From a virus: a stretch of 45,202 nucleotides of DNA. Position numbers and translations under genes: made by a program. The DNA lies in IMG/VR virus record IMGVR_UViG_3300009610_000020, positions 1 to 45,202 of that record; one strand, given 5' to 3'. Below the pieces are notes generated by a model. That model did not search any database. It saw only the letters and a program-made list of their open reading frames with translations, and was not told the origin of the DNA. Shown here one piece after another: positions 12,827 to 27,095 of the stretch (the first letter of the stretch is position 1; each line of letters opens with the position of its first letter).

Positions 12827-13043
12827 GTCTGACTCCCATTGCCATTAGTGTGCACTAGTTGCCAAAGAGCGAAGCTCGGCAGTGTATGCACAAGCGATGG
12901 CAGTAACCGGAACAAGAACTATCCGGGGGAATGATTCCCAAATGAAAGAAGGGACCATGAGAGGAGCCCCTTAGGGCTCCCTACCATGCTGAGAATATGG
13001 TACGGATAATACCTTATCAGCCCGGATTATAATGCTATATGTA

Positions 13044-13176
13044 GCAGCCCCTTAAGGGCTGCATTATATGATGATACATTTCTATATATATTGGGAATCC
13101 TAAGGGATTCCCATACAGTATAACACCAGTGTAATTGTTTATCACTTAACCCATTTCCTAGGGGAAATGGATTATA
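13044..13176 (-). promoter_or_regulatory. Candidate late promoter array: -10 boxes abutting hairpins
   Basis: On the minus strand three -10-like boxes are each followed at 0 to 4 bases by a perfect short hairpin. TATAAT at 13171-13176 precedes the hairpin 13151-13170. TATACT at 13117-13122 precedes 13093-13112. TATAAT at 13063-13068 precedes 13044-13062. The stems differ in sequence but share length (7-8 pairs) and 4-5-base loops. They point at the terminase gene about 220-350 bases downstream. No good -35 box is seen, so a helper factor or an AT-rich extended promoter would be needed. Confidence 0.45.
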
Positions 13177-13537
13177 TCGTTCAATGCATTGTTACGAATT
13201 CACAAGATGTACTAGGTTAATGTATAGTAGTATATATACAAGATCTTGTTATCACCCTGTCTAAGTGGTGTTCCGGGACCTTCTGCAACAGCTCCAGGGA
13301 AAATTTTACCTTCAATGTGACGAACATCACACTCCTGGAGGGTCATATGAAGATCATCTACACTCTACGTAACCAGTCATAATCAAAATGTAATACCCTC
13401 CCAGGGGACAGTTTATCCTGAGAAATTAAATTAGACTCACGAGTCCGAGTCCGATCGGAGTTTAAAAATGCCCGGGTTTGTCCTAGTTTGGTCGCGATTA
13501 TATGTACACACATGGAATGAATTGCAAAGGCATTGGA

Positions 13538-14422: not shown

Positions 14423-14695
14423 CAATGAGTGTGACAGAGCCGAAAACCTCAACTGGCCACACGGTCAGCGGCAGAGTAGGCGAACCACTCTAGGTGACTA
14501 GTATTCTCTCTCTTTCCCTGCAAGGGGGATGAGCAGACAGCGAGATCGACTCACCAGTGTGAATCAGTTGTCACCTCTCAACGATGTGGCATAGGAGAAT
14601 CCTGGTGGGAGTCGCAAGACTCAAGAGGCATGAATCACTGTCCGTTCTTCCTCCGGACCACTCAAACGTGTGTGTTGAGTGGTTGGGGAGAGATG

Positions 14696-15413: not shown

Positions 15414-15468
15414 GTGAACAGCATGGTTCACACAATGTGTGAGCTGTGTGGTCTACCTAGACCAATCA
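15411..15468 (+). repeat. 58-base leader repeat, copy 1, with tandem hairpins
   Basis: Identical to 16673-16730. It contains the hairpins GTGAAC-AGCATG-GTTCAC (15414-15431), ACAC-AAT-GTGT, and GGTCT-ACCT-AGACC (15450-15463), then leads to GGGAGAGAG and the ATG at 15483. The stop codon TAG of the upstream gene forms its first three bases in both copies although the two upstream genes differ. It therefore behaves as a mobile or recombined leader cassette. Confidence 0.85.
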
Positions 15469-15482
15469 CAAGGGAGAGAGAA

Positions 15483-16027: not shown

Positions 16028-16039
16028 AGGGAGAGAGAA

Positions 16040-16675: not shown

Positions 16676-16730
16676 GTGAACAGCATGGTTCACACAATGT
16701 GTGAGCTGTGTGGTCTACCTAGACCAATCA
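16673..16730 (+). repeat. 58-base leader repeat, copy 2, joined to a gene fragment
   Basis: Exact copy of 15411-15468, with the same hairpins. In copy 1 the repeat leads to GGGAGAGAG and a start codon. Here it ends abruptly at 16730 and runs straight into the middle of a paralogous gene, so ribosome site and start are missing. That junction shows where a deletion took place. Confidence 0.85.
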
Positions 16731-17084: not shown

Positions 17085-17158
17085 AAGGGAGAGAGCTGTG
17101 GAGTTTGCTCCGCAAACCCACGGCCATTCCTTTCATTGAAAGGAATTGGAATGACTGA
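17085..17158 (+). promoter_or_regulatory. Leader cassette with upstream ORF and hidden ribosome site, copy 1
   Basis: About 74 bases identical to 18711-18784. It holds GGGAGAGAG, a GTG start of a 13-codon ORF, and a hairpin GTTTGC-TCC-GCAAAC extended by GTGG/CCAC. A second hairpin, TTCCTTTC-ATT-GAAAGGAA, has a 3' arm containing the AAAGGAA ribosome site for the ATG at 17151. The upstream ORF stops (TGA) at the loop of that hairpin, so a ribosome ending there would open it. This is a plausible translational switch. Confidence 0.7.
17098..17139 (+). CDS. Leader peptide (upstream ORF), copy 1
   Basis: GTG start, 13 residues MEFAPQTHGHSFH, then TGA. The distance from GGGAG to this GTG is the same as from GGGAG to the true ATG of the neighbouring early genes (for example 15483 and 17582), which supports real initiation here. 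An identical peptide is encoded at 18724-18765 in front of an unrelated gene. The peptide itself may matter less than the ribosome's passage through the hairpin. Confidence 0.5.
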   Translation: MEFAPQTHGHSFH

Positions 17159-17565: not shown

Positions 17566-17581
17566 AGACTGGGAGAGAGAA

Positions 17582-18068: not shown

Positions 18069-18087
18069 AGAACAAAGGGAGAGAGAA

Positions 18088-18710: not shown

Positions 18711-18784
18711 AAGGGAGAGAGCTGTGGAGTTTGCTCCGCAAACCCACGGCCATTCCTTTCATTGAAAGGAATTGGAATGACTGA
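18711..18784 (+). promoter_or_regulatory. Leader cassette with upstream ORF and hidden ribosome site, copy 2
   Basis: Identical to 17085-17158 over about 74 bases, ending inside the first codons of the gene (ATGACTGA). Here it precedes a gene unrelated to the one behind copy 1, so the cassette is exchanged as a unit and is under constraint or recent copying. Upstream ORF 18724-18765, switch hairpin about 18752-18770, gene start 18777. Confidence 0.7.
18724..18765 (+). CDS. Leader peptide (upstream ORF), copy 2
   Basis: Same 13-residue peptide MEFAPQTHGHSFH as at 17098, starting at GTG after GGGAGAGAGCT and ending at a TGA in the loop region of the hairpin that contains the AAAGGAA ribosome site. 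Confidence 0.5.
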   Translation: MEFAPQTHGHSFH

Positions 18785-19452: not shown

Positions 19453-19475
19453 CGGAAGAGATACTGGGAGAGAGA

Positions 19476-20201: not shown

Positions 20202-20213
20202 TAGGTAAAAGTT

Positions 20214-20233
20214 CCAGCGTCTTCGGACGCTGG
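20214..20233 (+). terminator. UUCG-capped hairpin, probable terminator
   Basis: CCAGCGTC-TTCG-GACGCTGG, eight perfect pairs closed by the very stable UUCG loop, 13 bases after the stop of the gene at 19476-20201. The following GCTTTAAGT is only weakly T-rich. It ends the block of repeated early cistrons and comes directly before a structured leader. Confidence 0.6.
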
Positions 20234-20241
20234 GCTTTAAG

Positions 20242-20352
20242 TCAGGCTGTCTAATGCAATCCGGCTGGTCAAGAGAAGGTTCTCTCCCGTCTCTTGACTC
20301 AGTTCGCTCAGATTGAGCGAACGTCTCCCCGGGGAGTAAAGGGACAGCCTGG
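20242..20352 (+). ncRNA. Multibranched structured leader RNA
   Basis: An outer helix of nine perfect pairs (CAGGCTGTC 20243-20251 with GACAGCCTG 20343-20351, extendable by G-U pairs) encloses three hairpins. These are GTCAAGAGA/TCTCTTGAC (20268-20298), GTTCGCTCA-GAT-TGAGCGAAC (20302-20322) and the palindrome CTCCCCGGGGAG (20325-20336). Twenty-five bases after the outer helix closes comes AAAGGAGG and the ATG at 20378. It therefore has the size and place of a riboswitch-like or protein-binding leader. I recognise no known RNA family. Confidence 0.6.
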
Positions 20353-20377
20353 CCTATGGCTCAGCGAAAGGAGGATA

Positions 20378-20842
20378 ATGGCAGTACCTGTTAAAGAGAT
20401 TAACCTGGTGGTTAAGGTACTGAACGATCCCGAGTTCGACGGTTGGACGGAGAAGGATCTAGCCACCAAAATCGTCGAGGCGATTAACCAAGAGAGAGAG
20501 AACACTAAACGATTCGTCGTTGTCGCTTCGCTGAAGTGGCCCCACGACGATGACCACCACATGTGGGCTGCTGGTCCGTTTAACACGGAACGACAAGCCG
20601 AACAGGTTGGTGAAAAGTTCTCTCATGACCCTTATACGAAACGTGGCGAGGGCAGGTGGAAAGTCGTTCCGATCCTTTCTCCGGCTGTCAATCCGGCACG
20701 TACAGCCTGGGACACCATTCGTCCTGCTGTCAGCGGTGAGCCCTGCTGTTCCCTGCATCACGGCTGGATCAAGGATGACCTTGACCGGTGGACATGGCTC
20801 CGGCCCCCAGGAGGGGCCGATCACTGGAGAGAAGGTTGGTAA
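20378..20842 (+). CDS. Early protein behind structured leader, unknown function
   Basis: 154 residues from the ATG preceded by AAAGGAGG, the strongest ribosome site of the region. MAVPVKEINLVVKVLN, then a region with WPHDDDHHMWAAGPF near residue 50 that resembles a small alpha/beta fold (FVVVASLKWP, TERQAEQVGEKF). The C-terminal half is Pro- and Trp-rich. The His/Asp cluster may bind metal. The longer frame from 20294 would run through the structured leader and is rejected. Stop overlaps the next ATG (TAATG). Confidence 0.7.
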   Translation: MAVPVKEINLVVKVLNDPEFDGWTEKDLATKIVEAINQERENTKRFVVVASLKWPHDDDHHMWAAGPFNTERQAEQVGEKFSHDPYTKRGEGRWKVVPILSPAVNPARTAWDTIRPAVSGEPCCSLHHGWIKDDLDRWTWLRPPGGADHWREGW

Positions 20843-26648: not shown

Positions 26649-27095
26649 ATGACTGACAGCGTTTCCCTCGGTGGCCAGTTCGAGAAGCTTCCGAAGATTG
26701 AGCTGACCAAGGTGGGCGACTTCGTTGACCACTACATCAGTGCAGTCAAGGAGGTTCAGCAGAAGGACCCGGTCTCTAAGATCGCGAAGTTCTGGGCTCC
26801 GAAGTACATGGGCAAGAACCGTCCTGTTGGGCAGGACGAGATGGTGCCCGGCAAGGAGAGCGAGTACCGTCCCGTCATGGACATCGTCCTTGAGCTGGAT
26901 GAGAAGTTCTCCGCGTACTGCACTGGTGACCTGCTCAAGAAGCTGAAGGCTGCTGCTGGTGAGGTTGGCAACAGCATCGACGTTGGTGCCCGTGTCGGTA
27001 TCCGGCTGGATGACCTGATTCAGGGTCCGGTCGGTTCCCCCAAGAAGATCCACACCGTCAAGTATGTCCCGCCGGTTCCGAGTGTCAAGCTCTAA
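26649..27095 (+). CDS. Abundant middle protein, possible single-strand DNA-binding protein
   Basis: 148 residues from the ATG at 26649. VMDIVLELDEKFSAYCTGDL, VGARVGIRLDDLIQG and KIHTVKYVPPVPSVKL near the end could be strands of an OB fold, and the gene sits with nuclease, helicase and primase. Codon choice is notably regular and GC-ending compared with neighbours, which can indicate high expression. Family not recognised for certain; no acidic C-terminal tail, so the SSB call is tentative. Confidence 0.45.
   Translation: MTDSVSLGGQFEKLPKIELTKVGDFVDHYISAVKEVQQKDPVSKIAKFWAPKYMGKNRPVGQDEMVPGKESEYRPVMDIVLELDEKFSAYCTGDLLKKLKAAAGEVGNSIDVGARVGIRLDDLIQGPVGSPKKIHTVKYVPPVPSVKL

Follow-up and report, generated by a model that had tools for sequence, protein, structure and literature searches.

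The early region of the 45.2-kb virus record IMGVR_UViG_3300009610_000020 (positions 1 to 45,202, the whole stretch analyzed here and referred to as the window) carries on its + strand a gene at 20378 to 20842 that encodes a 154-amino-acid protein of PHROG 3965, a family of unknown function, preceded by a long, structured sequence. The terminase of the window resembles those of Streptomyces phages of the subfamily Beephvirinae, and a sigma-like or HTH gene, a phosphoesterase, an exonuclease, and DnaB have homologs in the Beephvirinae phage Manuel. An initial annotation, made from sequence alone, had described a multibranched leader RNA at 20242 to 20352, and its observation was confirmed: every helix it named is present. 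These are an outer helix (20243 to 20251 with 20343 to 20351, extended to 12 pairs, 20241 to 20252 with 20342 to 20353, in the minimum free energy [MFE] fold), hairpin 1 (20268 to 20276 with 20290 to 20298, a 9-bp stem with a 13-nt loop), hairpin 2 (20302 to 20310 with 20314 to 20322, 9 bp with the loop GAT), the 12-base palindrome CTCCCCGGGGAG at 20325 to 20336, and AAAGGAGGATAATG before the ATG at 20378. The 126-nt stretch from 20235 to 20360 folds at -59.1 kcal/mol, compared to -38.6 +/- 3.4 kcal/mol for 200 shuffled sequences (z = -6.0), none of which was as stable. In a 120-nt scan of both strands, only three stretches scored higher after correction for GC content: the leaders of two other early genes (18641 and 17021) and one stretch in coding sequence (16081).

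The boundaries originally proposed were too narrow. The UUCG hairpin upstream, which had been set apart as terminator-like, and the sequence up to the Shine-Dalgarno (SD) belong to the same conserved element, which spans about 20212 to 20377. This hairpin, hairpin A, comprises a 5' arm, X (CCAGCGTC, 20214 to 20221), the UUCG loop (20222 to 20225), and a 3' arm, X' (GACGCTGGGCT, 20226 to 20236). Support for the terminator label is weak, since no U-tract terminator was called at this hairpin, whose tail is GCTTTAAG. A third segment, X'' (GGCTCAGCG, 20358 to 20366), can pair with X' (20228 to 20236) and is followed by the gene's own SD, AAAGGAGGA, at 20367 to 20375. An Rfam search, which had been proposed as the means of naming the element or supporting its novelty, gave no family reaching its gathering score and only weak, chance-level hits; no riboswitch class and no c4 model matched. 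The core shared with a related viral contig (L001, below) resembled a twister ribozyme, but neither twister nor any other small ribozyme family appeared at E <= 5. A promoter reading of TCTAAT likewise found no support.

Most other early genes of the window have a different start signal. The fold scan revealed several strongly structured intergenic stretches between 15.9 and 20.3 kb; these are leaders of other early genes and end in GGGAGAGAG shortly before the start codon. Eight of nine + strand copies of the motif GGGAGAGA in the window lie 2 to 3 nt before a start codon, at 14686 to 14693, 15472 to 15479, 16029 to 16036, 17087 to 17094, 17571 to 17578, 18077 to 18084, 18713 to 18720, and 19466 to 19473. 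The Beephvirinae have the same arrangement: in 11 genomes, 81 of 102 gaps of 55 nt or more end in GGGAGAG. Between 15414 and 19480 of the window, and in the early regions of Manuel and JXY1, a family of two-hairpin leaders (AUGGU[hairpin]GCUGU, a second hairpin, and GGGAGAGAG-AUG) stands before most early genes and recurs across the Beephvirinae, with no Rfam hit. One leader sequence is duplicated (15414 to 15470 and 16676 to 16730), and the gene after the second copy looks like a truncated paralog. Two identical stretches after GGGAGAGAGCT (17098 to 17139 and 18724 to 18765) hold a GTG-started frame of 13 codons (MEFAPQTHGHSFH) over a perfect hairpin, followed by a second SD and ATG, a possible leader peptide.

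Homologs of the element were found by several routes. Direct DNA and protein searches of phage records with the region and the gene gave nothing, and no relative of the gene was found in genome contigs. Short core patterns (GGNGAGTAAAGGGAC and GTCTAATNNNATCCGNCT) searched over viral contigs returned 42 and 29 stretches, among which only the contig L001 was a homolog. L001 keeps the gene (64% identity) and the core of the fold (GTCTAATNNNATCCG at 20249 to 20263 and the segment with GGGAGTAAAGGGACAG at 20330 to 20347 of the window) without the two inserted 9-bp hairpins, and its outer helix has different bases that still pair. Just upstream of the L001 core (L001, 2735 to 2808), two 9- to 10-bp hairpins with 3-nt loops are enclosed by a CCCAACCC/GGGTTGGG helix, like the hairpins inserted inside the window's element. 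The Beephvirinae have an element at the end of the early array, before AAAGGAGGA, in 29 records of the phage collection, the same 29 that hold a neighboring gene used as a marker, and in further viral contigs; in the scan with GAGGTGNCTCTCTCCCC, 2 of 11 stretches (L099 and L102) were chance hits and were dropped. The upstream neighbor gene of L001 is homologous to the gene just upstream of Manuel's element (33% identity, E = 6e-17), which links the two sets. The Manuel gene whose product begins MAVP was considered as the homolog of the window gene, but comparison showed that it is not, so orthology rests on the covariance model, on synteny (a downstream reversed gene pair is shared with Manuel), and on L001. 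R4-like phages have a weak relative of the gene; two of their regions were retrieved but not searched for a leader.

A covariance model built only from 11 distinct Beephvirinae-type sequences finds the window element at 20212 to 20374, the syntenic place (E = 2e-6 to 7e-6), as well as those of L120 (E = 6e-9 to 2e-8) and L116/L117 (E = 4e-4 to 2e-3), and finds nothing at E <= 1 in 290 kb of 16 other loci. The sequence alignment left out sequences identical to a row already used (JPandJE, WRightOn, Kumquat, Abafar, and L107) and five that repeat phages or contigs already in the set (L106, L100, L101, L103, and L104). Caution is warranted because reverse complements of true members score 35.8 bits, as much as the window (36.1 bits), L001 is not significant by the model (E = 0.14), and a per-record search gave no hit for L001 or for the record of L116. 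One outcome named in advance as counting against a regulatory leader, retention of the gene with loss of the pairing, does occur: the related contigs L118 and L119 keep a homolog of the gene and the start motifs but have no leader in front, and their records (38 kb and 13 kb) show no complement of the motif on the coding strand. L001, however, keeps both the gene and the core.

The element has two alternative folds. In the rod state, X' pairs with X'', and the former loop of hairpin A, with neighboring bases, pairs with the own SD. Covariation analysis of homologs, which the initial annotation had suggested as a check, supported this fold: in the 11 distinct elements, 95.5% of 330 cells pair, with 19 double-change cells at six pairs and a covariation of 0.260, compared to 0.149 +/- 0.013 for shuffled alignments (0 of 500 as high), while sliding the partner by 1 to 3 columns drops pairing to at most 53.5%. 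Hairpin A alone pairs in 90.9% of cells but has only one doubly changed pair, and the SD side of the loop-SD pairing does not vary. In 13 of 13 sequences (the 11 plus the window and L001) cut at or near the SD, the rod is the MFE fold and the hairpin A state lies 1.4 to 6.8 kcal/mol above it, with the SD less paired overall; in the unconstrained ensemble, the last five bases of the window's SD, GAGGA, are paired with a probability of 0.90 to 0.99. With longer flanks, Percastrophe, Treat, and JPandJE fold with hairpin A formed rather than as the rod, so the balance is close in that group.

In the Beephvirinae, the long stem varies and covaries, but its loop, CUCUCUCCCC, is invariant and is complementary to the start motif (GGGAGAGAG/GGGGAGAG). 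This 10-mer occurs once on the early strand of Manuel and of JXY1. Among the annotated starts of Manuel, the GGGAGAG-type early genes take most of the top places as predicted targets of the loop (-16.5 to -22.8 kcal/mol), while the element's own gene scores -10.5. A few starts outside the array (27047, 32271, and 11811) also score as targets; the gene at 27047, in the rightward part and two genes before the annotated holin, has a GGGAGAGAGAGAG start motif and scores -21.0. The start motif pairs poorly with a 16S tail (-8.9) but well with the loop (-19.7), and the own SD does the reverse (-15.8 and -8.6, respectively).

In the window, the loop of hairpin 1 shows UUCUCUCCC, and its segment TTCTCTCCC at 20280 to 20288 is complementary to GGGAGAGA. 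Against 18 starts that we chose between 14.6 and 21.7 kb, the mean score was -17.3 for the eight with the start motif and -7.9 for the ten others, the own gene scored -7.5, and none of 1,000 shuffled loops was as good; for the Manuel loop, 1 of 1,000 was. L001 (ACUCUCCC), L120, and L116 show equivalent loops, although that of L120 is only weakly significant (22 and 28 of 1,000 shuffles as good in two runs), and for L116 the figure is 4 of 1,000. Both motif and loop are low-complexity purine/pyrimidine tracts: the 8-mer TCTCTCCC occurs four times on the window + strand (about one expected), the other three copies lying in coding sequence or opposite a gene, so the evidence lies in its place and not its rarity. 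The loops are predicted to remain unpaired (0.78 to 0.99; mean of 0.78 for the window loop), whereas the start motifs are only about half open in their predicted leaders (mean unpaired probability of 0.50 in 81).

A parallel was found in unrelated mycobacteriophages. Cluster K phages carry the start-associated sequence (SAS), a lineage-specific motif (GGGATAGGAGCCC, 13 bp) wider than the SD core that is repeated just before early/nonstructural genes (PMC3203893, PMC11373665, PMC12699233). The window motif, GGGAGAGA(G), is not the SAS but resembles it in being repeated a few nucleotides before early-gene starts and wider than the SD core. Papers from 2011, 2024, and 2025 call the role of the SAS unknown or unproven, and several K1 phages have one reversed copy (PMC3203893); ESAS repeats were judged not to pair as RNA. 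We found no connection drawn there between the reversed copy and a hairpin loop or antisense pairing. In our analysis, this copy lies in the loop of a long hairpin in Adephagia and Anaya and in six more Anayavirus sequences, 8 of the 12 elements read. In Adephagia it lies at 58,682, between genes 92 and 93, where late transcription is said to appear to begin (PMC11373665), and none of 1,000 shuffled loops paired as well. The Adephagia and Beephvirinae loops are specific to their own motifs. Support from the stem is modest (93.0% of cells pair, with two doubly changed pairs). Ekdilam, Shandong1, Keshu, and Pixie, which belong to other genera, lack the reversed copy at the homologous place, and TM4 and Pixie, which have SAS, show no intergenic anti-SAS in the parts searched, the one match of 8 nt or more being an 8-mer in or at coding sequence of TM4. 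Related elements occur in 140 phage records, most of which were not read individually.

The initial annotation's reading of the region as a riboswitch-like or protein-sensing leader was partly supported. Homologs, covariation, and alternative folds that cover or free the SD favor a cis-regulatory leader RNA before a well-initiated early gene, but the evidence points to RNA pairing and not to sensing, although no ligand or protein was tested. The model we favor, with a confidence no better than even, is that the region is a conserved leader RNA of Beephvirinae-like phages with two jobs. Its long stem would present a loop that pairs with the ribosome-binding sites of most other early genes, in trans or on the same long transcript, to lower early-gene translation as early transcripts accumulate. 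For its own gene it would be a bistable switch, in which hairpin A, which can form first during transcription, leaves the own SD fairly free, while the usually more stable rod opens hairpin A, whose loop region then covers the SD. The conserved, covarying structure, the specific complementarity of the loop, and the two alternative folds rest on computation; that the RNA is made, that the loop pairs in the cell, that pairing represses, and the order of folding are our inferences. We saw no expression or functional data for this phage group (a term search of the Abafar paper, PMC11536984, found no RNA-seq), and nothing was tested in cells. If correct, the model would explain why the motif is conserved beyond what ribosome pairing needs and would show a way for a phage to turn off a whole set of its own genes with one RNA.

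Other explanations were considered. A cis-only translational switch, in which the pyrimidine loop binds a protein or ligand and matches the start motif by coincidence, is possible but doubtful: the alternative folds covering the own SD, the covarying rod, the low complexity of loop and motif, and the weak significance of the L120 loop are consistent with it, but the loop discriminates start-motif genes from others, is invariant where the stems vary, and has a counterpart with a different motif in an unrelated phage group. Recognition of the loop by a phage or host protein in autoregulation, which would also suit a structured leader with a conserved loop and is consistent with the idea of the initial annotation, seems less likely still, since nothing specific points to a protein and the complementarity would stay unexplained. 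A terminator combined with an mRNA processing or stability element, with hairpins marking RNase cut sites or protecting ends, as other structured leaders of the same region may do, is unlikely. Structured leaders stand before many early genes and hairpin A is GC rich with a UUCG loop, but the absence of a called terminator weighs against this view, which does not explain the invariant loop, X'', or the SD pairing. DNA-level palindromes (an operator, origin, or recombination site) with no RNA role are the least likely, despite the several inverted repeats here and the perfect hairpins near the L001 core, because stems covary rather than keep their sequence, loop orientation and strand are fixed, and the element precedes the same type of SD.

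Among known systems, the closest is the c4 antisense RNA of phages P1 and P7 (PMC12197685), a phage RNA whose loops pair around a ribosome-binding site of a phage gene. The window loop shares that complementarity, although processing of the RNA and repression by pairing were not assayed. c4 has one target, ant, in an immunity system; here the loop would match about eight genes per phage, a one-to-many form, and the RNA is also the leader of another gene with an alternative fold. C-rich-loop small RNAs of Gram-positive bacteria likewise direct a pyrimidine loop against the SDs of many mRNAs but are host encoded and are not a phage leader matched to a phage-specific start motif. Translational riboswitches share the two exclusive folds, one covering the SD, but the conserved part here is an exposed, antisense-like loop. 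Literature searches on antisense RNA and SAS, limited to open-license papers, returned no report of an anti-SAS RNA. A broader and more tentative hypothesis is that actinobacterial phages of at least two unrelated groups independently use a one-to-many self-antisense system, in which a phage-specific start motif marks a set of early genes and a single hairpin RNA with the complementary loop shuts their translation down, in Adephagia from the place where late transcription begins and in the Streptomyces phages from a bistable leader that also switches its own gene. This would give the first mechanism for start-associated sequences. Elsewhere in the window, an AT-rich noncoding stretch at 12960 to 13180 carries several short inverted repeats and may be a terminator cluster or an origin.
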